From Bacteroidaceae bacterium (GTDB lineage: Bacteria; Bacteroidota; Bacteroidia; Bacteroidales; Bacteroidaceae), in NCBI GenBank assembly GCA_024401055.1, contig JAKSLT010000008.1:1-51534 (forward strand): a DNA stretch of 51,534 nt. The letters are read 5' to 3'. This document shows positions 3,187 through 51,266 of the stretch, piece after piece. Within the stretch, counting starts at the first letter, position 1, and each line of letters starts with the position of its first letter. The notes beneath the pieces are model-generated. The model was not told where the DNA came from. It ran no database searches and was given only the letters and a program-made list of their open reading frames with translations. Both the position numbers and the translations under genes were made by a program.

Positions 3187-4308
3187 TTATTTGAGGATTT
3201 TACGACCGTTGTGGATGTAAAGACCCGAGGACTTCGGGCTGACGCCCGAAGCACTGGGACTGAGGGACGAAGGCAGGATGCGACGACCTTGGAGGTCGTA
3301 GGTAGGAGCCTGTCTGTCGTCAGTTGTCTGTTGTCCTATAATGCCGGTGGCGTCGGCCACGAAACTCATCGGAGCCGTGCGGAGCGTCACGTCGGGATAG
3401 TAGCGGCTGGTGCCCTGGGCTACCACCTCGCGGTTCTCCTTGAGGAAGGTGTAGGTGTAGCTGGACTTGGTGAAGTCCTCACCGCTGACGAGTTCATGGC
3501 CGTCGGGGGCGATGAAGATGATTTCCTCGGTGAGGGCGGCGTTCCAGGCGTTGTAGCGGAAGAGGTCACTGGCGTCGTAAGGTTCGTTCAGGAGTTTGTA
3601 GTCGAAAGCGTGGAAGGGACGCTGGGGAACTACCACGGCGGCTACGGAGTACTTCTCTGTGGAGGTGTTGTAGATGGTGGGGAAGGAGTTGAACCAAAGT
3701 GCGTTGTTGTGGGCGTAGAAGTCGGTGAGGGTCTTCTTGCTGGCACTGGAAGCGTTCAACTTGATAAGCGAGTAGTCGTTGTTGTCCGCAGCGAGGGTAA
3801 TGAGGCCCTTGGCCGTGGAGAGGTCGAGGGTGCCGGAGAGTTGGTTGTCGTTTACCCAAACGTGGCGCAACTCATCGCTAGCCAGCGTGAGGCTCTCAAG
3901 GGCGTTGCCGCTGACAACGAGGTTGTTGAGCTGGCGCTGCTTGGAGAGGTCGAGCTCGGTGAGGGCGTTGTCGGGGAGCCAGAGCACCTGGAGCTTGGTG
4001 AGGGAGGCGAGGCCCGTGATGGCGGTGATGCCGCTGGCGGGACAGACGATGGCAGTGACGTCGCCATCGGCCACCTTAACGGTGAGCTTTGAGCCGGGGG
4101 CCGTAGCGGTATAGACGGTGCCGGGGGCGAGAGTGGCGGTGGTGCCGTCGTCCCAGGAGAGGTCGGCCGTAATGCCGTCGTTCAGCCAGAGCGTGAAGGA
4201 GGAGCCCTTCGTCGTGGAGAGCGAGAACGACGTGGCGGCCACGGCGCTCATCACCACGCAGAGAAGCATGGCGATGAGAGCGGAGAGGCGTTTGTTCTGT
4301 TGAGTCAT
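3187..4308 (-). CDS. Secreted leucine-rich-repeat protein with C-terminal sorting tail
   Basis: A 373-residue protein with a signal peptide (~1-25). Residues ~90-185 contain irregular leucine-rich repeats of the type 'LQVLWLPDNALTELDLS' and 'LNNLVVSGNALESLTL'. The C-terminus has the 'YDLQGRRI...GLYIHNGRKILK' tail shared with other secreted proteins in the window, suggesting export to the surface. Between RRI and GLYI it is about ten or more residues longer than its relatives, and the extra DNA contains a perfect 8-bp-stem palindrome (3232-3251). Just upstream the codons derive from a (GACAACA)n repeat (residues QQTTDDRQ). It sits between the POT transporter (5-base gap) and the M60 protease (9-base gap), so it is probably co-transcribed and may serve protein binding. 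The specific function is unknown. Confidence 0.8.
   Translation of the reverse strand: MTQQNKRLSALIAMLLCVVMSAVAATSFSLSTTKGSSFTLWLNDGITADLSWDDGTTATLAPGTVYTATAPGSKLTVKVADGDVTAIVCPASGITAITGLASLTKLQVLWLPDNALTELDLSKQRQLNNLVVSGNALESLTLASDELRHVWVNDNQLSGTLDLSTAKGLITLAADNNDYSLIKLNASSASKKTLTDFYAHNNALWFNSFPTIYNTSTEKYSVAAVVVPQRPFHAFDYKLLNEPYDASDLFRYNAWNAALTEEIIFIAPDGHELVSGEDFTKSSYTYTFLKENREVVAQGTSRYYPDVTLRTAPMSFVADATGIIGQQTTDDRQAPTYDLQGRRILPSSLSPSASGVSPKSSGLYIHNGRKILK
3311..3336 (-). repeat. In-frame (GACAACA)n heptamer repeat in the LRR gene
   Basis: The minus strand reads GACAACA, GACAACT, GACGACA, GACAG. It encodes QQTTDDRQ immediately before the sorting tail. This is one of four loci in the window with the same heptamer in the same sense orientation. 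Confidence 0.8.
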
Positions 4309-9689: not shown

Positions 9690-10437
9690 GGGCTGAAAGC
9701 CCTTAATTGTATAGCCTAGGGCAAAGTGACCGAAGGGAACGACGCCCTAGGGTCGCATGATTGCCGCACTTGCGGCCGCCGCAACGCGGCATCATTGTTG
9801 CGGGGCAACGCCCCAACTCTCTAGCCTAACTTTCCGCTCTAATCACTAAGAACATACTTCTCGTCATATTCCACGCCGTAGGCTTGCAGCCATTTTAGGT
9901 ATTCTTCTCGGAAGGATATCTTCTTATGATGTTCTTCTTGATTGTCTATATAGGCTTCTGTTTCTTCCAAACGCGACTGACTAACGGAGAATGCTGCATA
10001 ACCTCTCTGCCAGGCAAAGGCGCGGTAGAAATTATCTTTTGTCTTTATCCACTTGCTGCTACTACGCTTTATCTCTTCAGCAAAATCCGACAAGGATAGT
10101 TGGCGCGGCAAGGTGCACAGCATGTGAACATGGTCTGGTTCGCCGCCAACTCTCACCACAAGACTATTCTGCGCACGCGCTATACCGGCGATGTAATGCC
10201 ACAACTCTCCGAGATGATTACGTTTTATTGTTGTTTCCTTGACGTGGAAAATGAAATGGATATATATTTGGGAAAGGGATTGAGCCATATTTTTTAATAG
10301 TTTTTCCAGTGAGTTGCCGCGTTGCGGCGATTGTATTATGCGGCGTTGCCGCGTACTTGCTTGTCTCACATACGACCTAGGGCGGCGTTCCCTTCGGTCA
10401 CTCTGCCCTAGGCTATACAATTACGGGCTTTCAGCCC
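9690..10437. mobile_element. RAYT-type element with ~66-bp inverted terminal repeats
   Basis: The left end (9690-9755) and right end (10373-10437) are inverted copies with only a handful of mismatches. Each end can fold by itself: GGGCTgaaAGCCC, then GCCTAGGGC pairing with GCCCTAGG. Further REP-like palindromes (gccgcaacgcggc on the left, gccgcgttgcggcg on the right) lie just inside. The only gene between them is a Y1 transposase. The structure is that of a REP-associated tyrosine transposase locus. Confidence 0.82.
9839..10288 (-). CDS. REP-associated / IS200-like tyrosine (Y1) transposase
   Basis: The start is placed at the Met beginning MAQSLSQIYIHFIFH, giving 149 residues; an upstream reading frame extension runs into the repeat and is unlikely to be translated. 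The HUH metal-binding motif is seen as PDHVHML, and the likely catalytic tyrosine lies in 'EAYIDNQEEHH', the usual Y1_Tnp context. It would nick and join single-stranded DNA at hairpin-marked ends. It appears intact. The flanking inverted repeats are its probable substrates. Confidence 0.9.
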   Translation of the reverse strand: MAQSLSQIYIHFIFHVKETTIKRNHLGELWHYIAGIARAQNSLVVRVGGEPDHVHMLCTLPRQLSLSDFAEEIKRSSSKWIKTKDNFYRAFAWQRGYAAFSVSQSRLEETEAYIDNQEEHHKKISFREEYLKWLQAYGVEYDEKYVLSD

Positions 10438-37742: not shown

Positions 37743-37954
37743 ACGACGATGTCGGCGAAAGCGTGTGCCGGAAGACCGGAATCGCTTGCCGCTTGCCTAT
37801 GCGGGAATTTGCAAACCTTGAATGAGAAGACTTATCCCGAACTGAGGTAAAGGAGAGAGGGACAAGAGGAAGGCGGGGAGGAGGCGATGCGGTGCTGCAA
37901 GGTTAAGAATGAGAAAAAGTTAAGATTGGATGCTGCTATGTGATATTATTTTAG

Positions 37955-37962
37955 TAATTTTG
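37955..37962 (+). promoter_or_regulatory. -7 element before rsmH
   Basis: TAATTTTG 21 bases before the ATG at 37984, without a clear TTTG upstream. A leader this short supports the ATG at 37984 rather than one at 37930, which lies upstream of the element. Confidence 0.5.
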
Positions 37963-37983
37963 CAGCGTGGAAAAAGTTCTTTG

Positions 37984-39033
37984 ATGGAAAAGTGCCCTAC
38001 ATACCATGTTCCCGTGCTACTGCGCCCCTGTATTGAGGCGTTGGTAACACGCCCCGACGGCGTGTATGCCGACATGACTTTCGGCGGTGGCGGCCATAGC
38101 CGCGGCATATTGGAAGCGCTCGGGCCACACGGGCAACTCTACAGTTTCGACCAGGATGCCGACGCGGAGCGCAACGCTACGCAGACGGGACCAGAGGGCA
38201 GGGTGTTTCAGGATAAGGAGCGCTTCACATTCGTGCGTTCCAATTTTAGGTATTTGAAGAACTGGATGAGGTACTACAGCCCCCTCACCCGCTCCCCCAA
38301 GGGGGAGTGCCTCGCTTCGCTCGAGTCCGCCTGCGGCGGAGATACTTATGAGCGATTGGAAAAGGGATTGCAAGGGACAACAGACAACAGACAACAGACA
38401 GAGCCAGCTGCGTTTTGCTGTCTGGACGGGGTCCTGGCCGATTTGGGCGTAAGCTCGCACCACTTCGACACCGAGGAGCGCGGCTTCAGTTTCCGCTTCG
38501 ACGCGCCGCTGGACATGCGCATGAACGGGCGTGGGGGGCAGACGGCGGCTGACGTGCTGAACACCTACGACGAGGAACGGCTGACGAAGATTTTCCAGCT
38601 CTACGGTGAGATACGCCAAGGTCGCGCGCTCGCACGTAATATTATTAAGAGGCGTCAGCAACAGCCGCTGACAACCACCGGGCAGCTGCGCGAAATGGTG
38701 AACGGCAACCTCCTGCCGCAGGCCTTCCAAGCCCTACGCATAGAAGTGAACCATGAGATGGAGGCGCTGGAGGAGATGCTCGGCGCGGCCATAGAATGCC
38801 TGAAGCCCGGCGGACGGCTGGTGGTGCTGACGTACCACTCGCTGGAGGACCGCATGGTGAAGAACTTCATCAAGGCGGGCAACGTGGAGGGGCGCGTGGC
38901 GCAGGACTTCTACGGTAACCGCCTGACGCCGCTGAGGGCGGTGAACAACAAGGTCATCGTACCCTCGGCCGAGGAACAGGAGGCCAACCCGCGGTCGCGC
39001 TCCGCCAAACTGCGCATTGCCGAAAAAATATAA
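37984..39033 (+). CDS. rsmH: 16S rRNA (cytosine(1402)-N(4))-methyltransferase with an internal repeat-derived insert
   Basis: A 349-residue SAM-dependent methyltransferase (MraW) that modifies 16S rRNA C1402; the start is 'MEKCPTYHVPVLL'. Family signatures: 'DMTFGGGGHSRGIL' (SAM site), 'GVLADLGVSSHHFD', 'RGFSFRFDAPLDMRMN' and the C-terminal 'PLRAVNNKVIVPS'. Between 'FRYLKNWMRYY' and 'CLDGVLADLG' there is an extra stretch of about 47 residues that other family members, as I know them, lack; its DNA is made of a palindromic element and a heptamer repeat (see 38278-38419). It is the first gene of the cell-wall cluster; no mraZ is found upstream. Downstream ftsL starts after 48 bases. Confidence 0.95.
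   Translation: MEKCPTYHVPVLLRPCIEALVTRPDGVYADMTFGGGGHSRGILEALGPHGQLYSFDQDADAERNATQTGPEGRVFQDKERFTFVRSNFRYLKNWMRYYSPLTRSPKGECLASLESACGGDTYERLEKGLQGTTDNRQQTEPAAFCCLDGVLADLGVSSHHFDTEERGFSFRFDAPLDMRMNGRGGQTAADVLNTYDEERLTKIFQLYGEIRQGRALARNIIKRRQQQPLTTTGQLREMVNGNLLPQAFQALRIEVNHEMEALEEMLGAAIECLKPGGRLVVLTYHSLEDRMVKNFIKAGNVEGRVAQDFYGNRLTPLRAVNNKVIVPSAEEQEANPRSRSAKLRIAEKI
38278..38419 (+). repeat. In-frame composite repeat insert in rsmH (palindrome plus heptamers)
   Basis: It begins with agccccctcacccg and the perfect palindrome CTCCCCCAAGGGGGAG (38292-38307), followed by a second hairpin CCGCC..GGCGG (38327-38339). It ends with the heptamer run GACAACA x3 (38376-38401). The reading frame stays open and encodes SPLTRSPKGEC.. 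and ..TTDNRQQTE. The sense-strand palindrome is identical to that in the BspA-like gene (49211-49226 complement). Confidence 0.85.
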
Positions 39034-39081
39034 GAAAAAAAACGAAAGTGAAGAGCCCTCGGACCGGGCCTGCCTAGAACC

Positions 39082-39420
39082 ATGAGCAAAAAGAACAAAA
39101 AAGAAAAACACCGCTCTCCGCTAGCCTACTGGCGCGAGGTGATGGGCGGCAAATACCTGACGGGCGAGACAATGCGCCGCAACATAAAGTATCTGCTGCT
39201 GATAATCCTGCTTGCCATTATCTACGTGAGCAACCGCTACCAGTGCCAGCAGGCCATGATTCAGGGCAAGCAACTGACGGACACGCTGATGGACCGGCGC
39301 TACAAGGCGCTGACGGCGCAGAGCCAGCTGAAGAAGGCCACGCTGCGCAGCCACGTGGAGAAAAACCTCCCCGACAGTACCATCAAGACGCCGAACGACC
39401 CCATGTTCGTAGTGAAGTAA
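39082..39420 (+). CDS. ftsL: FtsL-like cell division protein
   Basis: A 112-residue single-pass membrane protein: a basic cytoplasmic N-terminus (~1-35), one transmembrane helix (~36-50, 'YLLLIILLAIIYVSN') and a periplasmic part with coiled-coil-like pattern. This architecture and the place between rsmH and ftsI match the FtsL-like proteins of Bacteroidota. It would join the FtsQLB-type divisome complex. Confidence 0.8.
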   Translation: MSKKNKKEKHRSPLAYWREVMGGKYLTGETMRRNIKYLLLIILLAIIYVSNRYQCQQAMIQGKQLTDTLMDRRYKALTAQSQLKKATLRSHVEKNLPDSTIKTPNDPMFVVK

Positions 39421-39466
39421 CCCTCCCATAACCGACTCAGTCACACTGGGCAGAGCAGCAAGAAAG

Positions 39467-41896
39467 ATGCAAGACAATAAAAAGAAGGCCAAGACCAAGG
39501 CAAGCCGCACCAAAGTGATGAACCGCTATTTCGTGGTCATCGCCTTAGCCTTCGCGTGCGGTATTCTCGTGATAGGACGCATGTGCCAGCTCACGTTCCT
39601 TCAAGGCGAATATTGGGAGAAGGTGAGCCAACGTTTCGTGCGCGAGGATGTGCAGATAGCCCCCCAACGCGGCAACATCCTGGCCGCCGACGGGCAGATG
39701 CTGGCCACCTCGCTGCCGCAGTACCGCTTGTATATGGACTTCATGGCCTATGACAAGGACAGCGTGATGCAGGCGAAGGCCCAGGCCCTGCGCGACTCCA
39801 TCATCTGCGCCGACACGCTGCGCGTCATTCCCGGACTGCTCAACCGCAGGAAAGAGGTCATACCCGAGAGCACACAGCAGAAGCACATCGACAGCTGCCG
39901 CAATGTTCTGACAGCCCTCTGCGAAGGCATGCACAAGCTCTTCCCCGAAGACATCGACGCGGAACAATTCCGCAAGCACCTCATTGAGGGACGCGCCAAG
40001 AAGAGCAAGCACTGGGCGCTCTACAAGAAGAAAATCACCTACATACAGTACTGCCAGGTGAAGAAACTGCCCTTCTTCAACCTCGGTGCCAACCGCAGCG
40101 GCTTCCACACGCAAGACTACCCCACCCGCCAGAACCCCTACGGCAAGCTGGCCGCCCGCACCGTGGGCGACCTCTACGGCGAGAAGGACTCGGCACGTTG
40201 CGGTCTGGAACTGGCTTTCGACTCCCTGCTGCGCGGCAAGCCCGGCTACTGCCACCGTCAGAAGGTGCTCAATAACTTCGTAAGCATCTACGACAAGATG
40301 CCCGAAGACGGCTTTGACATCCGCACGACGCTCGACATCAACATGCAGGACATCGTGGAAAAGACGCTGGGCGAACATCTTAAGAGCATCGACGCCGACT
40401 TCGGCGTGTGCGCCGTGATGGAAGTGGCCACTGGCGACGTGAAGGCCATCAGTTCCCTCGACCGTTTGGGCGACGGCTCGTACCTTGAAATCAGCAATCG
40501 CGCCGTGAGCCTGCTCATGGAGCCGGGCTCGGTGTTCAAGGGAGTGAGTTTCATGGTGGGACTGGACGAAGGCGCCTTCAACCTAAATACGATGGTGGAG
40601 ACCTTCAATGGCCAGTATAACTTCTATGGTGCAAGAATGAGAGACTCCAACTGGAGTAAGGGCGGCAACGGCTACATCTCGGCGGCCGAGGTGTTTGAGA
40701 AATCCAGCAACATCGGCACGGGACGCCTCATTGACGAATACTATCACGATAAGCCCGAAAAATACGTTGAAGCCGTGTATCGCACCGGCATTCACGACGA
40801 CCTGCAGCTCCCGCTGCCCGGCTACGCCAGGCCCAACATCCGCCAGCCCAAGAAAGACGCCACCAACCACTATTGGGCCAACTGGAGCAAGACGGCTCTG
40901 GCCTGGATGAGCATGGGATACGAGACGCAGGTGCCGCCCATTTCCACCCTGACGTTCTACAACGGCATAGCCAACGGCGGCAAGATGATGTACCCGCGCT
41001 TTGTGCAGAGCGTGGAGAAAGACGGCGAGGTAATTCACGAATACCCCGTGAGGGTGTTGAGAGAACACATGTGTAAGCCCTCCACCGTGAGAGACCTCCA
41101 CAAGATACTGCGCGGCGTAGTGGTGAAAGGAACCGGCAAGCAATGCGGCTCCAAGAATTTCAGCGTCAGCGGAAAGACCGGCACGGCACAGGTATGGACG
41201 AAGAACGGCCGCAGCAGCAAATACTTCGTCACGTTTGTGGGCTTCTTCCCTTCGGAACGCCCCAAATACACCATGATAGTGTGCGTCCAGAAGGACTATC
41301 CGGCATACGGCGGCAGCACCTGCGGCCCCGTGTTTAAGAAAGTGGCCGAAAGCATCATGGCACAGAACATGGAGACCAACCTGGCCCTGCATACCGACAG
41401 CGTGAACACCCTCCGGCCTATTGTTCACCCCGGAAACCTAAGATCCACGCAGCAGAGCCTCAACGCCTTAGGCATAGACTGCAGCCCTACGGCCCACAAC
41501 GGCGAGGCATGGGGGGACGCCACCCTCTCCGGAAAGACCTACAGGCTCAACGCTGAGAGAACACAGGGCAACGTCATGCCCAACCTCAAAGGCTACGGCC
41601 TGCGCGACGCTGTGTACCGTCTTGAGAAGATGGGGCTTACCGTGAGCGTGCGGGGCAGTGGCCGCGTGGTGCAGCAGAGCGTAGCGCCGGGCACGGCCGT
41701 GAAGAAAGGCCATAAAGTAACCCTCCTGCTCTCCAGCAACGGGAAGGCACCGCAGAAAGCACCTGCGCAGCAGTCCACTGCGCCACAGCAACAACCCGCA
41801 GCGCCACAGCAGCCCACCGGACAGACGGCACAGCAGTCTGCCACTCAGGCCAAGTCTGGCACCACACATTCCAAGCCTGCCACGACACAGCCCTGA
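39467..41896 (+). CDS. ftsI: Division-type penicillin-binding protein (transpeptidase) with PASTA domain
   Basis: An 809-residue class B PBP that cross-links septal peptidoglycan. One N-terminal transmembrane helix (~20-40), a dimerisation domain with 'IAPQRGNILAADGQMLA', and the transpeptidase domain: active-site Ser355 in SVFK, SSN at 413-415 and KTG at 570-572. A PASTA domain follows (~680-745, 'MPNLKGYGLRDAVYRLEKMG'). The last ~60 residues are Q/P/A/T-rich and of low complexity. It lies 46 bases after ftsL and 45 before murE. Confidence 0.95.
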   Translation: MQDNKKKAKTKASRTKVMNRYFVVIALAFACGILVIGRMCQLTFLQGEYWEKVSQRFVREDVQIAPQRGNILAADGQMLATSLPQYRLYMDFMAYDKDSVMQAKAQALRDSIICADTLRVIPGLLNRRKEVIPESTQQKHIDSCRNVLTALCEGMHKLFPEDIDAEQFRKHLIEGRAKKSKHWALYKKKITYIQYCQVKKLPFFNLGANRSGFHTQDYPTRQNPYGKLAARTVGDLYGEKDSARCGLELAFDSLLRGKPGYCHRQKVLNNFVSIYDKMPEDGFDIRTTLDINMQDIVEKTLGEHLKSIDADFGVCAVMEVATGDVKAISSLDRLGDGSYLEISNRAVSLLMEPGSVFKGVSFMVGLDEGAFNLNTMVETFNGQYNFYGARMRDSNWSKGGNGYISAAEVFEKSSNIGTGRLIDEYYHDKPEKYVEAVYRTGIHDDLQLPLPGYARPNIRQPKKDATNHYWANWSKTALAWMSMGYETQVPPISTLTFYNGIANGGKMMYPRFVQSVEKDGEVIHEYPVRVLREHMCKPSTVRDLHKILRGVVVKGTGKQCGSKNFSVSGKTGTAQVWTKNGRSSKYFVTFVGFFPSERPKYTMIVCVQKDYPAYGGSTCGPVFKKVAESIMAQNMETNLALHTDSVNTLRPIVHPGNLRSTQQSLNALGIDCSPTAHNGEAWGDATLSGKTYRLNAERTQGNVMPNLKGYGLRDAVYRLEKMGLTVSVRGSGRVVQQSVAPGTAVKKGHKVTLLLSSNGKAPQKAPAQQSTAPQQQPAAPQQPTGQTAQQSATQAKSGTTHSKPATTQP

Positions 41897-41941
41897 CCCA
41901 TCAAGCCTAAAAAAACATAACAACATAAAAAAGAGAAGGAC

Positions 41942-43414
41942 ATGCTACTATCAGCCCTCCTTAAACAATCACACATAACCATACTCGCCACCAACGGCTC
42001 GTTGGAGAGAGAGGTGAGCGGCGTCAGTCTGGACTCCCGCCAAGTGAAGCCCGGCCACCTCTTCTTCGCCGTGAAAGGCACGCAGGCCGACGGCCACGCC
42101 TACATCCCCAAAGCCTTGGAGCTGGGCGCCATCGCCGTGATAGGCACCGAGCCCGTGGAGAACATTGCCCTCAGCACCGCAACGGCGGAGAGCGTCAGCT
42201 ACATACAAGTGGCCGACAGCCAGAGCGCAGTGGGTGCCATCGCCACAGTGTTCTATGGCAACCCCTCACAGAAGCTGCACCTCGTAGGCGTCACCGGCAC
42301 CAACGGCAAGACCACCACCGCCACGCTGCTCTATCAGCTCGTGCGGCTCTTGGGTCACAAGGCCGGCCTGCTCAGCACCGTATGCAACTACGTAGACGAC
42401 CGCGTCGTGCCCGCCGCCCAGACCACGCCCGACCCCGTCACCCTAAACGCCCTCCTGGCCGAGATGGTAGCTGAAGGTTGCGAGTACGCCTTCATGGAAT
42501 GCTCCAGCCACGCCATTCATCAGCGCCGCATCGCCGGCCTCACTTTCGCCGGCGGCGTGTTTACCAACCTCACGCGCGACCATCTGGACTATCACGGCAC
42601 CTTCGAAGCCTACCGCGACGCCAAGAAACTCTTCTTCGACGAGCTCCCTCGCGAGGCCTTCGCCATCACCAACGCCGACGACCGCAACGGCCTCTTCATG
42701 ACGCAAAACTGCCGCGCCGCCGTCCAGACCTACTCCACGCGCACCGCCGCCGACCTCAAGGCCCGCATCATCGAGGAGAGTCTCGAGGGCATGCTGCTCC
42801 GCCTGGACGACGAGGAAGTGAGCGTGCGCTTCGTGGGCCGCTTCAACGTGAGCAACCTTCTCGGCGTTTACGGTGCCGCCCGCGCCCTGGGATTCCCGAA
42901 GGAAGACGTGCTCCGTGCCCTCTCGCTGCTGAAGCCCGTCAACGGCCGCTTCGAGGCCATCCGCTCACCGAAAGGTGTCAGCGCCATAGTAGATTATGCC
43001 CACACCCCCGATGCGCTGGAGAACGTCTTGAACGCCATCCACGACGTACTGCGGGGCCGCGGCCACGTCATCACCGTGTGCGGCGCCGGCGGCAACCGCG
43101 ACAAGGGCAAGCGTCCCCTCATGGCACAGGAAGCCGTGCGACAGTCCGACCGCGTCATCATCACCTCCGACAATCCCCGCTTCGAAGAGCCAGAAGCCAT
43201 CATTCAGGACATGCTCGCCGGCCTCAACGACGAGCAACGCCAGAAAGTGCTGACCATCACCGACCGCCGGGAGGCCATACGCGCCGCCGTCATGATGGCA
43301 CAGAGCGGCGACGTCATACTCGTGGCCGGCAAGGGGCACGAGCCCTATCAGGAAATCAAAGGCGTGAAGCATCACTTCGATGACCACGAAGAGATAAGAG
43401 CAGCCTTTCAATAA
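41942..43414 (+). CDS. murE: UDP-MurNAc-L-Ala-D-Glu:meso-diaminopimelate ligase
   Basis: A 490-residue cytosolic Mur ligase that adds the third amino acid to the peptidoglycan stem. The ATP-binding loop is '[12 protein letters not shown]' (~116-127). The DNPR motif (Asp410-Arg413), which marks meso-diaminopimelate specificity, is present in '[10 protein letters not shown]'. '[13 protein letters not shown]' and '[13 protein letters not shown]' are further signatures. Length is normal. Confidence 0.96.
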
Positions 43415-43425
43415 ATAATTCAAAA

Positions 43426-43463
43426 TCGAATAATCGAGAAATCGAGTCCTCGAATAATCCAAT
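43426..43463. repeat. Period-8 tandem repeat between murE and mraY
   Basis: Units tcgaataa, tcgagaaa, tcgagtcc, tcgaataa, tccaatat start at 43426, 43434, 43442, 43450 and 43458. The last unit runs into the mraY start codon. It fills the gap between the two genes. Confidence 0.7.
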
Positions 43464-44735
43464 ATGCTATACTACATCTTCCGTTTCCTAGAAGGATACG
43501 GCATCGCCGGTTCCCGTCTGTGGAGCTACGTTTCCTTCCGTGCCCTGTTGGCACTCATCGTTGCACTCATCATCAGCCTATGGTTCGGCGAGCACTACAT
43601 CCGTTGGATGAAGCGCCACAACCTCAGCGAGGAGCAACGCGACTTCAGCATCGACCCCTACGGCGTGGCCAAAAAGGGCGTGCCCTCGATGGGCGGTATC
43701 GTCATCCTCGTCGCCGTGTTCGTGCCCTGCCTGCTCTTCGGCCGCCTGCGCAATATCTACATTCTGCTGATGCTGGCCGCCACCGTATGGTTCGCCGGCA
43801 TAGGCTTCCTCGACGACTACATCAAGAACTTCCGCCACAACAAGGACGGCCTCGCCGGCCGATGGAAACTCGTGGGGCAGTTCATTGCCGGCCTCGCCGT
43901 GGGCCTTACGCTCTATTTCTCCCCCGACGCCGTGATACGTGAGAATGTATCCACGATGCAACGCGACGGCGTGGTGGAAGTCGTCCATAAGAGCGAGCCC
44001 GTGAAGAGTACAAAGACCACTATCCCCTTCTTCAAGAACAACAACCTCGACTATGCTGAAGTCGTCGGTTTCCTCGGCGACCACAAGCAGGCTGGCGGCT
44101 GGATTCTCTTCGTACTGATGACGGCCTTCGTTATCGCCGCCGTGAGCAACGGCGCCAACCTCAACGACGGTATGGACGGCATGTGCGCCGGCAACTCCGC
44201 TATCATCTACGTGGCGCTGGGCGTATTGGCCTACGTCAGTTCCCACATCGGTTTGGCCGGCTACCTCAACATCATGTTCGTGCCAGAGTCCGAGGAACTC
44301 GTAGTGTATTGCTGCGCCATGCTGGGAGCCCTTATCGGTTTCCTGTGGTACAACACCTACCCTGCCCGCGTCTTCATGGGCGACACGGGCTCGCTGATGA
44401 TAGGCGGCACCATCGGCGTGCTGGCCGTCATCATCCACAAGGAGCTCCTCATCCCCATCCTCTGCGGCATTTTCCTCATGGAGAGCATCAGCGTCATCCT
44501 CCAGACAGAATACGCCAAGGCCGGCAACCGCCGCGGCAAGAAGTGGCGCGTCTTCAAGCGTGCCCCACTCCACGACACCTTCCGCGTGAAGCCTGAAGAA
44601 ATGCTGCCCGACGCTAAGTACCTCTTCCGCAAGTGGCCCAAGACGCCGGCCTTGGAGTCGATGGTCACCGTACGCTTCTGGATTATCAGCATCCTGCTGG
44701 CCGTCCTCACTATCATAACACTAAAGATAAGGTAA
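43464..44735 (+). CDS. mraY: Phospho-N-acetylmuramoyl-pentapeptide-transferase
   Basis: A 423-residue polytopic membrane enzyme that makes lipid I from UDP-MurNAc-pentapeptide and undecaprenyl phosphate. Signatures are 'KKGVPSMGGIVI', 'GFLDDYIK', 'GANLNDGMDGMCAG', 'VFMGDTGSL' and the late 'RVFKRAPLHDTF'. It is longer than the ~360 residues of proteobacterial MraY because of a central insert (about residues 155-200), from memory usual in Bacteroidota. Confidence 0.96.
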   Translation: MLYYIFRFLEGYGIAGSRLWSYVSFRALLALIVALIISLWFGEHYIRWMKRHNLSEEQRDFSIDPYGVAKKGVPSMGGIVILVAVFVPCLLFGRLRNIYILLMLAATVWFAGIGFLDDYIKNFRHNKDGLAGRWKLVGQFIAGLAVGLTLYFSPDAVIRENVSTMQRDGVVEVVHKSEPVKSTKTTIPFFKNNNLDYAEVVGFLGDHKQAGGWILFVLMTAFVIAAVSNGANLNDGMDGMCAGNSAIIYVALGVLAYVSSHIGLAGYLNIMFVPESEELVVYCCAMLGALIGFLWYNTYPARVFMGDTGSLMIGGTIGVLAVIIHKELLIPILCGIFLMESISVILQTEYAKAGNRRGKKWRVFKRAPLHDTFRVKPEEMLPDAKYLFRKWPKTPALESMVTVRFWIISILLAVLTIITLKIR

Positions 44736-44753
44736 GACTATCGTCTAAAAAAA

Positions 44754-46076
44754 ATGAAACTCGTTGTATTAGGCGCAGGGGAGAGTGGTGTAGGCACCGC
44801 CATCCTGGCCAACAAGAAAGGATATGAAGTGTTTGTCTCCGACATGGGGCAGATACAGGATAAATACGTGCAGGCCCTCGAGGCCCACCAAATCGACTGG
44901 GAAGAGTGCGGCCACACCGCCGGGCGCATCCTCGACGCCGACGAGGTGGTGAAGAGCCCCGGCATCCCCGACACCGCCCCCATGGTGCAGACCCTTCTGG
45001 AGCACGGCATACCCGTGCTCAGCGAAATAGAGTTCGCCGCCCGTTACACCAAGGGCCACTGCGTGTGCATTACCGGCTCCAACGGCAAGACCACCACCAC
45101 CCGCCTCATACATTATATATTTACACGCGCGGGCCTCAACGCGGGTCTCGCCGGCAACATCGGCCGTTCCTTCGCTTGGCAGGTGGCCGATGACGACAAG
45201 GAGTGGTACATTCTCGAGCTCTCTTCCTTCCAACTCGACAACATGTTTGGTTTCCGCGCCGCCATCGCCGTGCTGATGAACATCACGCCCGACCACCTCG
45301 ACCGCTACGACTACGACTTCCAGCACTACGCCGACTCCAAGATGCGCATCATCCAGAATCAGGACAAGCGCCACTGCCTCATCTATTGGGCCGGCGACCC
45401 TGTCATACAGCGCGAGCTCAAAAAGCGCGAGGGCGACTACCGTGCTCCCGCCCCCACGCCCACAAGCCACAGTGCCGTGCCCGGGCATCCCAACCTCATA
45501 GGTTTCACCGACGACGTCTTCTCGCAGCTCCGCCTCACCTTCTCGCAGATGGGTCGCCACAACCAGCGCAACGCCACCGCCGCCTATCTGGCCTGCCGCG
45601 CCTCCGGTATCAGCGACGATATCATCCGCGAGTGCCTTGAGGACTTTCCCGGCGTGGAGCACCGTCTGGAGCGCGTGGGCGAATGGGACGACATCCTCTG
45701 GATTAACGACTCCAAGGCCACCAACGTGGACGCTTGCCTCGTGGCCCTGCAAGCCATGGATCGCCCCACCGTGCTCATCGTGGGCGGCAAGGACAAGGGC
45801 AACGACTACAGCGTGCTCTTCGACATCATTCAGGAGAAGTGCCGCGGCCTCGTCTTCCTCGGCGCCGACAACCGTAAGCTCCACGACAGCTTCGACGCCC
45901 TCGGCCTGCCCATTGCCGACACCCACAACATGGCGGACTGCGTCAGCGCCTGCCGCGGCTTTGCCGAAGAGGGCGACGCCGTGCTCCTCTCGCCCTGCTG
46001 CGCATCCTTCGACCTCTTCAAGAACATGGAGGACCGCGGCGAGCAGTTCCGCGCCCTGGTCAAGGCCGGCCAGTAG
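44754..46076 (+). CDS. murD: UDP-N-acetylmuramoyl-L-alanine:D-glutamate ligase
   Basis: A 440-residue Mur ligase that adds D-glutamate in peptidoglycan precursor synthesis. The ATP loop is 'CITGSNGKTTTTRLIH'; 'ELSSFQLDNM', 'NITPDHLDRY' and 'WINDSKATNVDA' are typical. It starts 18 bases after mraY and is co-transcribed with the cluster. Confidence 0.96.
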   Translation: MKLVVLGAGESGVGTAILANKKGYEVFVSDMGQIQDKYVQALEAHQIDWEECGHTAGRILDADEVVKSPGIPDTAPMVQTLLEHGIPVLSEIEFAARYTKGHCVCITGSNGKTTTTRLIHYIFTRAGLNAGLAGNIGRSFAWQVADDDKEWYILELSSFQLDNMFGFRAAIAVLMNITPDHLDRYDYDFQHYADSKMRIIQNQDKRHCLIYWAGDPVIQRELKKREGDYRAPAPTPTSHSAVPGHPNLIGFTDDVFSQLRLTFSQMGRHNQRNATAAYLACRASGISDDIIRECLEDFPGVEHRLERVGEWDDILWINDSKATNVDACLVALQAMDRPTVLIVGGKDKGNDYSVLFDIIQEKCRGLVFLGADNRKLHDSFDALGLPIADTHNMADCVSACRGFAEEGDAVLLSPCCASFDLFKNMEDRGEQFRALVKAGQ

Positions 46077-46169
46077 CGTCTGACGTCAGGCCGCCCAGAG
46101 TCCTGAACTGCCGGCATTTCATGCAAGCGCCCCGCCTGTCTCCAAAAACATATCACCCTCCCCTTCCGT

Positions 46170-47465
46170 ATGCCCAACTCCTTCATCCGTCTGAAAGGCG
46201 ACCCCGTCATCTGGGTCATTATCTTTGCCCTCTGCGCCATCTCCCTCGTTGAGGTGTTCAGCGCCACCAGCATGCTCTCCTATGGCCACGGCAGCTACTG
46301 GCAGCCCTTCATCCGCCAGGCCGCCCTACTCGCCGTAGGCATCGGCATCTGCATCGGCATGCACTACGTGCCCTGCAACCTCTATCGCTATATCACTGCG
46401 GGATGGCCCATCATCATCATCATACTCGCCTTCATGGCCTTCAGCGGCGGCGATGTCAACGGTGCCGCGCGATGGTTCAAGGTGGGCGAGCTCACCTTCC
46501 AGCCCTCCGAACTGGCCAAAGGCATACTCGTGGCCACCGTCGCCCTCGTCCTCTCGCGAAACCGCGAGGGCAACGGTGTCAACAAGACAGCATGGAAATA
46601 CGTGGCAATCGCCTCCGCCCCCATCATCCTTCTCATCTTCAAGGAAAACATCAGCACCGCCGTATTCCTCTGCGGCGTCGTCTTCGTCATGATGTTCGTC
46701 GCCGGTGTCCCCACGCGCCAGATGCTTATCATCTCAGCCGTCGGTGTCGCCACCGTCATCATCGGCGTAGCCTCCCTCAAGGCCTTCCCCGACAGAGTGG
46801 ACGACCCCTTCTACAAGACCACCGTCGGCAGCGTCTTCAAGCGTATGCCCACCGCCAAGGAACGCATCTTCGGTCATAGCCTCGTCATCACCGCCGACCC
46901 CGACAGCCTCGTCCTCTCCGACAAAAACATGCAGGTCGTCCATGCCCGCATCGCCGTGGCCAACAACAACCACGGCATCGGCCTTATGCCCGGCAACAGC
47001 GTGGAGCGCGACTACCTCCCCCAGGCCTACAGCGACTTCATCTACGCCATCATCGCCGAAGAGACCGGCATCTGGGGCGCCAGCATCGTCCTCCTGCTCT
47101 ACCTCGTCCTACTCTATCGCATAGGCATCATCGCCAACAACTGCGGTCAAGACTTCGCCGCCTTCCTCGTCATGGGCCTCGGCGTACTCCTCGTTGGCCA
47201 GGCCCTGCTCAACATGTTGGTAGCCGTAGGCATCGGCCCCGTCACGGGACAGACGCTGCCCCTCATCTCCCGCGGCGGCACCTCCACCTTCATCACCAGC
47301 GCCTACTTCGGCATTCTCCAGAGCGTAGCCTGGAGCGGCGTGAAGAAGAAAACTAAAGCTCCCTCCACACCGGCGTCCGCCCCCCAGCCCGCAAAAGAAG
47401 CCGAAGCTCCCGCACCCGACAACGCACCCGATGACCTCCCCGACACTGATCCTGCACTCGCATAA
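46170..47465 (+). CDS. ftsW: Peptidoglycan polymerase of the divisome, SEDS family
   Basis: A 431-residue membrane protein with about ten helices. 'ARWFKVGELTFQPSELAKG' is the SEDS signature; 'GPVTGQTLPLISRGGTS' near the C-terminus is also typical. It works with the division PBP to polymerise septal glycan. The C-terminal tail is Pro/Ala-rich. Its 3' end overlaps recO by 35 bases. In this order murG and murC would usually follow; they do not here. Confidence 0.95.
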   Translation: MPNSFIRLKGDPVIWVIIFALCAISLVEVFSATSMLSYGHGSYWQPFIRQAALLAVGIGICIGMHYVPCNLYRYITAGWPIIIIILAFMAFSGGDVNGAARWFKVGELTFQPSELAKGILVATVALVLSRNREGNGVNKTAWKYVAIASAPIILLIFKENISTAVFLCGVVFVMMFVAGVPTRQMLIISAVGVATVIIGVASLKAFPDRVDDPFYKTTVGSVFKRMPTAKERIFGHSLVITADPDSLVLSDKNMQVVHARIAVANNNHGIGLMPGNSVERDYLPQAYSDFIYAIIAEETGIWGASIVLLLYLVLLYRIGIIANNCGQDFAAFLVMGLGVLLVGQALLNMLVAVGIGPVTGQTLPLISRGGTSTFITSAYFGILQSVAWSGVKKKTKAPSTPASAPQPAKEAEAPAPDNAPDDLPDTDPALA

Positions 47466-48096
47466 ATACGCCGACGACCGCCTCATCGTAGAGACCTACA
47501 CCGAGGCCGCAGGCCCCGTCAGTTTCATCGTGCGCATCAACCACGGCGGACGGCAAGCGGCCGTGCCCCACACCATCTTCCAGCCCCTCGCACTCCTCGA
47601 AATCAGCTGGGAAGAGCACGCCCGCACCACACTCGTCAAACCCACCGCCGCACGCCCGCTCCACATCCCCCACTCCATCACCACCCATCCCGTCAAGAGC
47701 GCCCTCGCCCTCTTCCTCGCAGAGTTCCTCCGCGCCGCCCTGCATCAGGAGCCGCCCTCCCCACTGGTCTTCAACTATATCGACCAAGCCCTCCGCTGGC
47801 TCGAAACCGTAGAAGACAGACCCATCGCCAATGTCCACATAGCCTTCCTTATACGCCTTGCCACACTCCTCGGCTTCAGCCCCACCCCCGAAGAGCTGCT
47901 CCCCATCTGCCCCCACCAGCATACAGACGCCATACCCACACTCCTGCGCATGAACCTCGCCAACCAGCACCTCTATCAGTTCACACGGCAGCAACGCACC
48001 GAACTCCTGCGCATCATCCTCCTCTACTACCGGCAGCATCTGCCCGCCTTCCCGCAGATGAAAAGCGTAGAAGTGCTCAGTCTGATTTTCGATTAA
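47431..48096 (+). CDS. recO: DNA repair protein RecO
   Basis: A 221-residue protein with the N-terminal OB-fold start 'LILHSHKYADDRLIVETYTE' and a helical C-terminal part ending in 'KSVEVLSLIFD'. RecO helps load RecA with RecR. It lacks the zinc-finger cysteines, except a partial 'ICPHQH'. The start lies inside ftsW (35-base overlap), implying translational coupling. It is followed by the tRNA-Glu promoter. Confidence 0.88.
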   Translation: MTSPTLILHSHKYADDRLIVETYTEAAGPVSFIVRINHGGRQAAVPHTIFQPLALLEISWEEHARTTLVKPTAARPLHIPHSITTHPVKSALALFLAEFLRAALHQEPPSPLVFNYIDQALRWLETVEDRPIANVHIAFLIRLATLLGFSPTPEELLPICPHQHTDAIPTLLRMNLANQHLYQFTRQQRTELLRIILLYYRQHLPAFPQMKSVEVLSLIFD

Positions 48097-48138
48097 GAGC
48101 ATCTTTTTGATAAAAAATGTAAAAAAACTCTCCAAAAC

Positions 48139-48169
48139 CTTTGTCAGTTCAAAAAAAAGCCGTACTTTT
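48139..48169 (+). promoter_or_regulatory. Bacteroidota-type promoter for tRNA-Glu and rpsT
   Basis: TTTG (48139-48142), 19 bases, TACTTTTG (48162-48169). It lies about 50 bases before the tRNA. Confidence 0.85.
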
Positions 48170-48221
48170 GCATCCGCAATTGAGCGAAACGCCCCCTCGC
48201 GAGGCCAAAAACCAATAGCAA

Positions 48222-48293
48222 GGTCCCTTCGTCTATCGGTTAGGACGAGAGATTTTCATTCTCTAAAGAGGAGTTCGACTCTCCTAGGGACTA
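48222..48293 (+). tRNA. tRNA-Glu (anticodon TTC)
   Basis: Acceptor stem GGTCCCT pairs with AGGGACT (one G-T pair); the anticodon stem AGAGA/TCTCT holds the loop TTTTCAT with anticodon TTC; the T arm is GGAGT-TCGACTC-TCC. The CCA end is not encoded. It precedes rpsT by 42 bases without a terminator, so both are probably made from one transcript. Confidence 0.97.
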
Positions 48294-48335
48294 CAACGAC
48301 AAAAAACGCGAAATTTATAAAAACAAAAAACAATA

Positions 48336-48590
48336 ATGGCAAATCACAAGTCATCCCTTAAAAGAATTCGCCAGACCTCTACCCATCGCCTGCACAACCG
48401 CTATTACGCCAAGACCATGCGTAACGCCGTGCGCAAGCTCCGTGGCACCACCGACAAGGCTGAGGCCACCGCACTCCTCCCCAAGGTGCAGAAGATGCTG
48501 GACAAGCTGGCCAAGAACAACACCATCCACCCCAACAAAGCCGCAAATCTCAAGAGCGGCCTGATGGTGTACGTCAACAAGCTCTCCTAA
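48336..48590 (+). CDS. rpsT: 30S ribosomal protein S20
   Basis: An 84-residue basic protein, '[19 protein letters not shown]' and '[20 protein letters not shown]', of the normal S20 length. It binds 16S rRNA at the bottom of the small subunit. Downstream is its own terminator. Confidence 0.97.
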
Positions 48591-48623
48591 TAACAGGGAC
48601 AGCCCAACGAAAGAAACCTAAAG

Positions 48624-48656
48624 CTGGACAACTCGCGAGAGTTGCCCAGTTTTTTT
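48624..48656 (+). terminator. Intrinsic terminator after rpsT
   Basis: CTGGACAACTC..GAGTTGCCCAG with a T-run. Confidence 0.93.
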
Positions 48657-48730
48657 GTTAGTATTTCTCGCAGCATTTACCGGACACCTCTTTATATATA
48701 CACGCGCATACACACGCGAAGTACATTTTC

Positions 48731-48760
48731 TCATACACCTCCTACACATCTTACACCTTC
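48731..48760. repeat. Short period-9 repeat (tacacNNNN)
   Basis: tacac at 48734, 48743 and 48752. A run of eight C follows (48762-48769), and then a hairpin caccccgc..gcggggtg (48783-48812) lies between rpsT and the 63-residue gene. No gene is seen. Confidence 0.45.
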
Positions 48761-48819
48761 TCCCCCCCCATAAATAACGCACACCCCGCCAAGGTTATTC
48801 CTCAGCGGGGTGCTATCTT

Positions 48820-49011
48820 TTACTCTCCCAATTCATTCCCCTCCCTGTAGGGAGGGGCTAGGGGTGGGTCTTCTTCTTCCCACATATATTGTGCGCGGGT
48901 GTCGAACGATCCTGTCTCGCCGCCAAACGGTATCTCGCTGGCGCCGCCAAGGAAAGCTCGCTCGGATGTCATGGAGGCCAGCTCGGCCTCGGGGATAATA
49001 TACTTCTTCAT
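48820..49011 (-). CDS. Small 63-residue protein, unknown function
   Basis: MKKYIIPEAELASMTSERAF then LGGASEIPFGG..ETGSF. Its N-terminus resembles a family of short proteins of Prevotella-like genomes that begin MKKYI.P...., from memory; no known function. The C-terminal ~15 residues (DPPLAPPYREG..) are encoded by a palindromic repeat element, which extended the frame. It follows the BspA-like gene on the same strand and is separated by an AT-rich period-8 array. It may be a real small peptide or a leftover of a larger gene. Confidence 0.5.
   Translation of the reverse strand: MKKYIIPEAELASMTSERAFLGGASEIPFGGETGSFDTRAQYMWEEEDPPLAPPYREGNELGE
48838..48870. repeat. GC-rich palindromic mini-element at the 3' end of the 63-residue gene
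   Basis: CCCTCCCT..AGGGAGGG palindrome followed by gctaggggtgggtc. It is related to the elements at 8757-8795 and 8879-8915. Confidence 0.7.
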
Positions 49012-49012
49012 A

Positions 49013-49131
49013 ATTAGAAAATTAGAAAATTAGCAAATTTGCAAATTAGCAAATGTGAGAATTAGCAAATTATATTGTCTGTCCGCAGGGCATTTCCGAA
49101 TTTGCTAATTTCCAAATTTGCTAATTAATAA
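49013..49131. repeat. Two inverted period-8 AT-rich arrays
   Basis: First arm: eight units beginning attagaaa, attagaaa, attagcaa, every 8 bases from 49013 to 49076. Second arm: atttccga, atttgcta, atttccaa, atttgcta, attaataa from 49092 to 49131, the inverse complement type. The second arm includes the stop codon of the BspA-like gene, and the first begins at the start of the 63-residue gene. Confidence 0.8.
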
Positions 49132-50968
49132 TCTTTTTACCGTTTACGATGCTGATGCCCTTCACGGCTCCCTTCACGCCACGGCCCATGAGGTCGTAAG
49201 CTACAGGGCTCTCCCCCTTGGGGGAGCTGGAGGGGGCTTCAATTGCCTCCGTCTCATCTTCGCCGTCCACCACAATCTTGATGTTCTGGGCCTTCGTGGC
49301 AGCATAGCCTCCGCTACGAGCCGTGAGACTCATGTACCAGCGCTGGGCACCGAGCACTACGCTGGCGCTGTTGGCTCTCTGCAAAGAACCGCCACTCAGG
49401 GCGTAGTAGCCGTTGGCATACATATTTGTCACCGGGGTGTAAGAGCCCGTGAACGTGTAAGTATAGTCGGCGCTGCTGCAATCCATGCTGTTACTCTGAG
49501 CAGCTTCCAGCGTCTTGTCGGTGAGGACGAGCGTCTGTGTGCCCGTGGCTTTCGCGCGAATAAGATAGGGGTAGTTGGGCCTGGTGCTGCCGGACGTTAG
49601 CTTCTTCACCACGAGGTACGTTCGGTCAAACTCGCCGTCGTCGTTATCGTCGTAGTCGATGAAGTTATACACGCGGGCGATGTCATAATCCTCGCACCAC
49701 TCCTCGTAGTCCATGGAGAAGGGCACGTAGAGAGCCTGCCAATTCGTATTTTTGAAGTTGCGGGTATAGGCCAGCGTGTCGCAGGTTTCCGCAGTGTCGG
49801 CCGTGTATTTCGTTCCATCTAAATAAGAAATTTTAGGGGTATTTATGTCATCTACAATTGTCCAGCACTCCTCCCAATAACTTGATTCGTAAATGGTCTT
49901 ATAGCCTTTGTGCACATGAAGCGTACCATCTTTAGTTCTTCCGCTAAAAGTGGTAAAGTCATCATCCAAATCAGGAGGTGTGGTAGCTAGGCAATAGACA
50001 TTGTCTAAGTTACAATTTGCGAAAGCATAGTAGTCAATGTACTTTACTTTGTTTCCAATAGTAAGGGTTTTAAGATTACGACATTGATTGAAAGCAGACT
50101 TGCCGATTCTTTCAACATTATTAGGTATTGTAAAGGATGTCATCTTTGTGCAGAAACTGAAAGTAGATTCCTCTATGCGTGTGATTTGGCTAGGGATAGT
50201 CACAGAAGACAGACTACTACAGCCAGAAAAGGCAGCAATTCCTATGCTCGTCACGCTGCTGGGGATGGTGACGGAGGTCAGGCCGCTGCAATCCCGGAAG
50301 GCCTCGTCTCCTATGCTCGTCACGCTGTTAGGAATGGTAATGGAGGTCAGACCGTTGCAATCCCGGAAGGCCTGGTCCCCTATGCTCGTCACGCTGTTAG
50401 GAATAATAGTGTTTTTACTGCCTAATATAAGAGTGTTACTTTGGGTTTCTATAATAGCATTGCAATTATTTCTACTATCATAACATTGATTATCTGAATC
50501 TACGATTATTGAAGAGAGAGAACGACAGTTAAAGAATGCATAGTTCTGGATTTCTTCTAAATTTTTCCCGATAACGACCGAATTTAGTCCAACACAATTA
50601 TAAAAAGCACATTCTCCTATGCATACGACACTATTGGGGATTGTTATGGACGTTAGACCTGTGCAGTTCTGAAAAGCGTATTTCCCTATCGCTCTCATAC
50701 TAGAGGAAATTGACACGGACGTAAGATTGCTGCAATCGTTAAACGTTTTGTTAAATATTTGAGTAACACTATAGGACTTCCCACCATAATAAACAGAGTT
50801 TGGAATGACTATAGAGCCAGCATACTTTGTGGGGCCAGTAGTCACTCCCACTTGATTAGAAAGATAAAAATCATAATAAATACCGCCTGCCTCAAAGTCA
50901 TAGGCGAAGGCCGCCTGTGGCAGCAGAAGGCCGAGGGCGGCGAGGAAAAGAAATAATTTGTGTTTCAT
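49121..50968 (-). CDS. BspA-like leucine-rich-repeat surface protein
   Basis: A 615-residue protein; the start MKHKLFLFLAALGLLLPQAAFA is chosen because it gives a signal peptide. Residues ~60-350 contain about ten LRR_5 repeats of ~23 residues ('SVTSIGDQAFRDCNGLTSITIP'), typical of BspA proteins that bind host matrix or other cells. Some repeats are near identical at DNA level (around 50240-50400). The C-terminal part is beta-rich, ending in 'AYDLMGRGVKGAVKGISIVN', the sorting tail. Within that tail, residues SSSPKGESP are encoded by a palindromic element. The LRR part is much lower in GC than the flanking DNA. Confidence 0.9.
   Translation of the reverse strand: MKHKLFLFLAALGLLLPQAAFAYDFEAGGIYYDFYLSNQVGVTTGPTKYAGSIVIPNSVYYGGKSYSVTQIFNKTFNDCSNLTSVSISSSMRAIGKYAFQNCTGLTSITIPNSVVCIGECAFYNCVGLNSVVIGKNLEEIQNYAFFNCRSLSSIIVDSDNQCYDSRNNCNAIIETQSNTLILGSKNTIIPNSVTSIGDQAFRDCNGLTSITIPNSVTSIGDEAFRDCSGLTSVTIPSSVTSIGIAAFSGCSSLSSVTIPSQITRIEESTFSFCTKMTSFTIPNNVERIGKSAFNQCRNLKTLTIGNKVKYIDYYAFANCNLDNVYCLATTPPDLDDDFTTFSGRTKDGTLHVHKGYKTIYESSYWEECWTIVDDINTPKISYLDGTKYTADTAETCDTLAYTRNFKNTNWQALYVPFSMDYEEWCEDYDIARVYNFIDYDDNDDGEFDRTYLVVKKLTSGSTRPNYPYLIRAKATGTQTLVLTDKTLEAAQSNSMDCSSADYTYTFTGSYTPVTNMYANGYYALSGGSLQRANSASVVLGAQRWYMSLTARSGGYAATKAQNIKIVVDGEDETEAIEAPSSSPKGESPVAYDLMGRGVKGAVKGISIVNGKKIIN
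49203..49239 (-). repeat. In-frame palindromic element in the BspA-like gene
   Basis: On the sense strand agccccctccag precedes the perfect palindrome CTCCCCCAAGGGGGAG (49211-49226), which is the same 16 bases as in rsmH. It encodes SSSPKGES just before the sorting tail. Confidence 0.88.
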
Positions 50969-51266
50969 AAGCGTTGAAAGCTGTCGCCTCCCCGTCCCAA
51001 GGTCGGCGCTAAAGGTTTGTTGTTTAATTATAGGCATATAAAAAGGCGCAGGGACACTCCGTCTGTCCTAACAAGGCATCGCCAAACGCCCTAGAGAAAC
51101 AAACAGTCCACCCCACGCCGTACCCATATAATGGCCACCCGCCTATAAGGGTGGACGTATAGGCACACGTGAGCGTATTTCTGCTTGTCCTTCTCTTGAA
51201 ATTAGGCGATTTTTTGTTAGAGAACAAAGCTTACGCTTTCATCTATGTCTGCACTCCTTGCGGAAT
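50969..51266 (-). ncRNA. Candidate structured 5' leader of the BspA-like gene
   Basis: About 300 bases separate a clear promoter from the start codon. The first hairpin is TGCATTCC-GCAA-GGAGTGCA (51250-51269). GTCCACCC (51149-51156) can pair either with the near GGGTGG (51135-51140) or with the distal GGGTGGAC (51106-51113), which are mutually exclusive. Near the gene a GGACA..TGTCC hairpin (51052-51068) is followed by a T-run (51040-51044), as in an attenuator. A 67-codon ORF covers part of this region. A regulatory RNA is an inference. Confidence 0.45.

Follow-up and report, generated by a model that had tools for sequence, protein, structure and literature searches.

The window analysed here is a stretch of 51,534 nucleotides (contig JAKSLT010000008.1 of the Bacteroidaceae bacterium assembly GCA_024401055.1) that carries two copies of a short hairpin repeat, one inside rsmH, the gene of the 16S rRNA C1402 N4-methyltransferase, and one inside a gene for a BspA-like leucine-rich-repeat (LRR) protein. 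Both very probably belong to a family of non-autonomous, hairpin-forming mini-elements, similar to repetitive extragenic palindromic (REP) sequences and to the hairpins formed by REP doublets (REPINs), which has spread by insertion through Bacteroidales genomes and whose in-frame copies are tolerated. A preliminary description of this DNA had reported the element in both genes; we find the cores where it put them, at 38292-38307 (+ strand, in the open reading frame (ORF) of rsmH) and at 49211-49226 (in the BspA-like ORF, which runs on the − strand). Its reading of the residues SPKGE in both genes is correct for the sense strand. The core is not the perfect 16-mer palindrome it was taken for: CTCCCCCAAGGGGGAG consists of 7-bp arms around a 2-nt loop, and its reverse complement differs at two of the 16 positions. 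The proposed sharing of reading frame stands for the core, which is read in the same frame in both genes, and fails for the agccccctc segment, whose frames differ (AGC CCC CTC in rsmH, GCC CCC TCC in the BspA-like gene).

The genome under study (G000, a draft of 2.31 Mb in 103 contigs, 83% complete, in which several contigs terminate in an element) contains 26 cores of the pattern CTCCCCCNNGGGGGAG and none with the reversed control, so the repeat is not a product of chance, although the window by itself has few (two) exact copies. Among 40 other genomes the pattern was present in a single congener, G009, at three places. Once the core copies are set in one orientation, a longer form of about 80 nt emerges, and a covariance model (R1) built on an alignment (A1) of 13 sequences of this form gave 95 matches in G000 at E ≤1 (150 of 1876 candidates scored). 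Fifteen of these are strong (64-106 bits; 13 of the 15 were used to build the model) and are followed by a gap down to 39.9 bits; the 80 weaker matches include single places counted on two strands, and those inspected have the hairpin and the tail in common. The tail 20-mer GGGGGAGCGGGGAGGGGGCT occurs at 64 places with ≤3 mismatches and at 62 with ≤2, against 14 in the reversed control. Merging the 62 tail places with five more (the two window copies, C63 and two truncated by contig ends) gave 59 dispersed elements of one super-family, so the further copies expected of a mobile element are present. This count leaves outside two places with three mismatches, the weaker R1 matches, five core copies with a different tail (L006, L014, L019, L025, L026) and six L001-type cores, which lie in another repeat with 20 nt of flank in common on each side.

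The basic unit is a hairpin, CTCCCCC-loop-GGGGGAG, followed by a G-rich tail that ends in GGGGGCT. Unit A, GC(A/T)CTCCCCC-AAA-GGGGGAGCGGGGAGGGGGCT, has a usual length of 33 nt, or 11 codons, and on reading holds no stop codon in any of the six frames. Unit B, a variant with CCCCCC-AAA-GGGGGG and the tail ATTTAGGGGGGCT, has a stop in some frames, yet in the interior pairs listed the frame of the host gene runs through it without interruption. Three arrangements are found: the single unit, the inverted pair with outward tails (REPIN-like, 82-120 nt) and the 80-nt form with additional hairpins to the left, of which there are 15 strong copies, that of rsmH included. A partner arm scoring ≥18 accompanies 25 of the 59 elements (random nearby sequence has its 95% point at 14 and its maximum at 24), and for 15 elements the score exceeds this random maximum. 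Terminal inverted repeats, AGCCCCC ... GGGGGCT, are recognisable in 21 doublets, which were selected by these ends; seven are exactly 91 nt long and the others 82-120 nt. Two A-A inverted pairs, folded as single strands, each close into a hairpin with some 30 pairs (z −9.2 and −8.1). An Rfam scan of nine loci returned no credible match at the elements: the sole match lying on one, mir-136 at L088, scores 30.3 bits where the cut-off is 64. Three A-B doublets, L145 (C15:36252), L146 (C16:61490) and L148 (C26:16395), adjoin ~20-nt repeats (AATTAAATCAGGACTAGTGCA); the surrounding DNA is AT-rich and the flanks resemble one another, an arrangement that looks as if they were part of a larger mobile unit.

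Reading frames were tested by codon-bias scoring over 240 nt on each side of the element. By this measure the two flanks of 25 of the 59 elements agree in coding strand and phase (22 of them without an intervening stop), and five have the same strand in another phase; on reading, the five resemble gene boundaries, C25 least clearly. When codon bias, ORF reading and Pfam are taken together in a hand-made list of mixed evidence grades, 34 of the 59 are interior to a frame that continues on both sides, three of them near C-termini and three near N-termini. Ten elements fall within a single Pfam match: RsmH, an RluA-family synthase, the AMP-binding domain of a nonribosomal peptide synthetase (NRPS), a DEAD helicase, the GTPase of release factor 3 (RF3), serine dehydratase, isoleucyl-tRNA synthetase (IleRS), QueE, an SBF transporter and a TonB receptor. 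Another nine separate two domains of a single protein: the NRPS again, a P-type ATPase, the DEAD helicase for the second time, a glycoside hydrolase of family GH92, a metallophosphoesterase, Lon, asparaginase, a lipoamide-dehydrogenase-like enzyme and valyl-tRNA synthetase (ValRS). Two of the 30 host proteins scanned with Pfam had no match at all. NCBIfam matches above cut-off span the insert in ileS, prfC and lon; those of queE, menC, valS and a rluA subfamily are below cut-off, and ValRS and IleRS are cut by the stretch ends. Further copies form possible N-terminal extensions of a low-molecular-weight protein tyrosine phosphatase (Pfam) and of a family-2 glycosyltransferase (by eye), and may be merely 5′ leaders. 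Some copies are situated at gene starts or ends, and others are intergenic. The 3-nt hairpin loop of the 33-nt unit is found in 30 of the 34 interior elements and in 10 of the 25 others, a contrast that is partly an effect of sub-type, because the loop of the 80-nt form is 2 nt long and most of its copies are not in genes.

Which frame the host reads differs from copy to copy. The 46 arms assigned to a host frame, N-terminal and boundary cases counted, divide as 11/21/2 over the sense and 8/1/3 over the antisense frames; interior elements contribute 38 of the arms, the rsmH copy not counted, and these divide as 8/18/1 and 8/0/3. Interior copies use five of the six frames, the sixth appearing solely in the doubtful case C26:11598, and so it is DNA that is copied: the conserved entity is DNA and not a peptide motif. 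Stops in unit B account for part of the uneven frame use.

The rsmH ORF (37930-39033, +; the true start is likely the ATG at 37984) is open across the insertion, and its product matches Pfam Methyltransf_5 over residues 25-367 (2.9e-86) and TIGR00006. The copy, a long form, occupies 38278-38358 on the − strand (R1 match G000:C82:38278-38358, 99 bits; one of the 13 A1 sequences), contains the core on the + strand and, in + strand reading, starts AGCCCCCTCACCCGCTCCCCC and finishes ATACTTATGAGCGATTG. It measures 81 nt against 80 in the family form, which makes 27 codons, and reads in antisense frame 0. Codons 118-164 (38281-38421, +), comprising the element and about 60 nt more of insert, have no counterpart in any congener examined: when the G000 protein was searched against 57 congeners, 52 aligned as two separate pieces with residues ~118-164 uncovered between them, and five gave no match. 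The insert is missing from 29 of 29 fetched congener homologues, in which the loop that separates the YY/YH pair from the DG/DA motif has 5-15 residues against 49 in G000; this loop is naturally variable in length. Within the rsmH insert, a short ACAACAGACA tandem at 38377-38403 stands beside the element.

The second window copy belongs to the other sub-type, a short unit of core and G-rich tail (49208-49238, +), and lies between the LRR region and the C-terminal tail of the BspA-like gene (49121-51037, −; Pfam LRR_5, 2.3e-66). It has the same position in the paralogous BspA tails L006 and L014 and, by alignment, L116. Its in-frame position is based on ORF reading, and that of the rsmH copy on Pfam and homologues. 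An intergenic hairpin with a G-rich tail, CCCCTCCCTGTAGGGAGGGGCTAGGGGTGGGTC, at 48838-48870 resembles a more distant sub-family of the element.

The segments do not occupy the same place in all homologues, as described above for the rsmH insert and as seen at most sites compared elsewhere in G000. In the sister genome G009, 30 sites were queried, 21 gave matches and 19 were compared, and 17 of the 19 are without a trace of the element; three of these 17 (C8:1556, C8:4311, C32:17154) align on one side only and were left out of the clean sites. The second DEAD-helicase site holds a decayed relative in G009, and C1:45381 a possible remnant. Two sites, in ValRS and in a C-terminal tail at C31, are common to both genomes. 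Relative to G009, the G000 genes are longer by 36 nt in IleRS (93% local identity) and by 42 nt in RF3 (91%). The cleanest case comes from other genomes: an in-frame addition of 36 nt in the GlcNAc 2-epimerase domain of L302 and L296 that is absent in L352, L306, L359, L357 and L044.

Under strict filters, R1 matched at E ≤0.001 in four of 58 genus genomes, G000 included. A looser pattern, GCCCCCTN{4,7}CCCCCN{2,4}GGGGG, was found in 75 of 301 family genomes (again counting G000) and in 11 of 30 genera, and its reversed control occurred once in each of three family genomes. The exact 19-mer arm was found in at least 109 stretches of a collection with one genome per species. Among the 109 arm matches listed, 100 are titled Bacteroidaceae, Prevotellaceae or Bacteroidales, two are Culturomica and Candidatus Equimonas, and seven have titles outside Bacteroidota; where a title names the source, it is mostly a ruminant (yak, sheep, goat, roe deer, reindeer, buffalo). 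A search of viral contigs with one exact arm pattern gave no match. From 80 of these at least 109 stretches (L287-L366), minus four that are non-Bacteroidota, we analysed 94 elements in 73 loci outside G000. Of the 84 testable ones, 26 are in frame, 37 have coding sequence on one side only and 14 on neither side; the codon scores were trained on the study window and are weak for other base compositions, so in other genera we relied on Pfam. There, Pfam matches span the element in orotidine monophosphate (OMP) decarboxylase, an MMR_HSR1 GTPase (judged by eye to be EngB), RelA/SpoT, an EF-Tu-type GTPase (likewise judged to be LepA), CTP synthase and enolpyruvylshikimate-phosphate (EPSP) synthase, and in RmlD they flank it on both sides. 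The in-frame habit is general across these genomes, with a lower in-frame share outside G000 by the codon-bias test. These relatives, together with its genes, indicate that G000 too belongs to Bacteroidales. The RmlD-like genes of two genomes (L325 at ~5707-5816, L342 at ~3918-4010) carry doublets at the same place with differing spacers, which is either one old insertion or a target hit repeatedly.

We hypothesize that a trans-acting enzyme transposes the hairpin as single-stranded DNA and so gives rise to the copies. Most insertions into genes would be lost, and the survivors would sit in loops or between domains; the frame would be kept because other insertions are lost. Survival inside genes would be eased by a 33-nt unit without stops in six frames, and each surviving insert would add predicted extra residues, 11 per unit and about 30 per pair (for example SPLPAPPLGES, ALPQRGSGEGA or LSPKGGAGRGL), as a passenger that the host protein tolerates and to which it would owe no function. 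Applied to the window, rsmH would have received the 80-nt form, here 81 nt, in its naturally variable loop, and the BspA tail would be explained likewise.

Several results weigh against this reading. Domain evidence exists for only 19 of the 34 interior elements, and neither window copy is among the 25 supported by codon bias, one flank scoring low. The seven doublets of exactly 91 nt are not a multiple of three, so those that keep frame needed extra bases. The fold of an A-B pair (z −2.1) or a single unit (z −1.1) has little or no excess over shuffles, and neither window copy folds better than shuffles (rsmH, z −0.46; BspA, z +0.29). Covariation in the long form is weak (three of 14 pairs changed on both sides, covariation term +0.12), and we therefore claim no conserved structure past the hairpins. 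In G009 the loop sequence next to most inserts also differs, which leaves few clean single insertions. Among the 84 testable elements outside G000, five have another phase on the same strand and two an in-frame stop, and these could be broken genes. The target-site duplication that the preliminary description had proposed to look for does not exceed chance, with two of 21 doublets matching at ≥2 nt against 0.99 expected by shuffling. Finally, the mobiliser was not found: none of 44 places with a Y1_Tnp match, some partial or under cut-off and only 16 in genomes known to carry the repeat, has this repeat within the 1.5 kb fetched.

This last result bears on the alternative that survives best, a classical system in which a Y1 tyrosine transposase of the same genomes, a REP-associated tyrosine transposase (RAYT), copies the repeats and the copies in genes are a by-product. 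The inverted pairs with outward tails, the long single-strand hairpins and the dispersed copies are as such a system would leave them, and G000 has four Y1_Tnp genes, one of them within the window. On reading, however, each of the four is flanked by its own, different repeats. The separation of the repeat from Y1_Tnp places points the same way, tempered by the fact that only 16 of the 44 lie in genomes known to carry it and by the incompleteness of G000, as does the finding that five of 12 repeat-bearing genomes, all incomplete drafts, have no Y1 match. Unit A as read also contains neither GTAG nor CGTC, nor their complements, the foot by which such REPs are known. We consider the classical system possible, with doubts. 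More tentative still is the idea that Bacteroidales have a transposition system of their own, distinct from RAYT, with a mobile unit suited to intragenic life that adds short flexible proline/glycine-rich loops; if true, such a system could colonise the coding sequence that makes up most of a genome and keep supplying essential proteins with new loops.

Selection for a host function, such as a signal for mRNA stability, transcription or chromosome structure, might account for the many hairpin copies kept and for the number of them at gene starts or ends. It would fit poorly with copies on both strands and in several frames, with their absence from most G009 sites compared and with a model that, under strict filters and at E 0.001, leaves 54 of the 57 other genomes of the genus without a match, and we regard it as improbable. 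Hairpins skipped by ribosomes have a precedent in the byps of yeast mitochondria, and GC-rich hairpins do sit in essential genes here, so that the insert could be bypassed in translation or cut from the mRNA and never enter the protein. If an element is skipped, neither its phase nor a stop within it matters, whereas G000 has 25 elements in the same phase against five in another, those five resemble gene boundaries, and unit B is free of stops in the host frame of the interior pairs listed; we give this explanation very little credit. That a low-complexity linker peptide arose repeatedly by selection on protein is scarcely credible, for although the translations are rich in G, S, P and A and sense frame 1 accounts for 18 of 38 interior arms, the same DNA is read in five of the six frames within genes and occurs between genes as well, its nucleotide identity is kept with paired arms, and 13 copies of the 80-nt form align. 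A CRISPR repeat or a plain terminator was set aside, with no search aimed at either, because copies are scattered over both strands and also occur within genes.

Insertion into coding sequence by REP-like and palindromic repeats is known already, and what is new here is this variant in another phylum. Rickettsia palindromic elements (RPEs) are described as palindromic mini-elements of about 150 bp lying in frame within unrelated conserved genes (PMC10969869, PMC3733652). The Bacteroidales element is likewise a palindromic repeat in frame in protein genes, and the likeness to the RPE pattern of insertion without breakage that the preliminary description drew is supported; membership in the Rickettsia families is not claimed. 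Wolbachia palindromic elements are of a related kind. Apart from the phylum, the Bacteroidales element differs in size (33-nt units or pairs of 82-120 nt against ~150 bp, a distinction by description and not by sequence) and in being read in five of six frames, the commonest with 18 of 38 arms, where RPEs have one conserved peptide per family. With 100 of the 109 arm matches listed titled Bacteroidaceae, Prevotellaceae or Bacteroidales, we file it as RPE-like, not as an RPE: it would act like one in another phylum.

Closer in form are the GTAG/CGTC REPs. Parts of a survey of these repeats report hairpin units and dimers within ORFs (tRNA synthetases, pseudouridine synthases, RNA helicases) that add 20-30 residues, describe the repeats as mostly extragenic, and name Bacteroidetes solely as holding CGTC repeats (PMC3733652). 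Both kinds are dispersed hairpins of 20-40 bp, often in inverted pairs (here a 33-nt unit and 21 doublets). Unlike those REPs, the Bacteroidales unit is without a tetranucleotide foot, and it is interior in 34 of 59 cases in G000 (26 of 84 elsewhere, by codon bias alone) rather than mostly extragenic. A REPIN is two inverted REPs forming one long hairpin, and REPs are also noted with the frame intact within the tnpAREP genes that make up subclass 2.4, which is abundant in Cyanobacteria and Bacteroidetes (PMC6006769). Inverted A-A pairs of the Bacteroidales unit also form one long hairpin; unlike for RAYT-linked REPINs, no linked RAYT was found for the repeat at the Y1_Tnp places examined. With transposon-derived miniature inverted-repeat transposable elements (MITEs) the doublets share terminal inverted repeats and not the target-site duplication. 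In the open full-text literature, with most subscription papers outside its scope, we found no report of the element or of wholesale in-frame insertion in Bacteroidales.

Dozens of copies in proteins (tRNA synthetases, RF3, Lon, RsmH and QueE, and elsewhere OMP decarboxylase and CTP synthase) of uncultured Bacteroidales, with relatives that lack them, amount to many natural insertion experiments, relevant to the origin of new protein segments, to the tolerance of loops and to the identity of the enzyme that moves the element. They are also a warning for annotation, since such segments are DNA parasites and not protein domains.

Two other kinds of repeat were observed in G000. The Y1 (IS200-like) transposase gene of the window (9842-10420, −) lies in a segment, 9690-10437, with inverted repeats GGGCTGAAAGCCC...CCTAGGGCAGAGTGACCGAAGGGAACGCCGCCCTAGG at its ends. 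A repeat that carries no gene has similar ends and is present six times in the genome (L001, L005, L009, L012, L013, L015), its copies being identical over 20 nt on either side of a CTCCCCCTGGGGGGAG hairpin; this repeat is perhaps a non-autonomous derivative of that transposase. On contig C26, two matches to the Acido-Lenti-1 RNA were found in L066 (2527-2572, −, and 2680-2725, +), one of them above the gathering score (43.8 against 37 bits), and similar sequence is also present in L077, L098 and L105.

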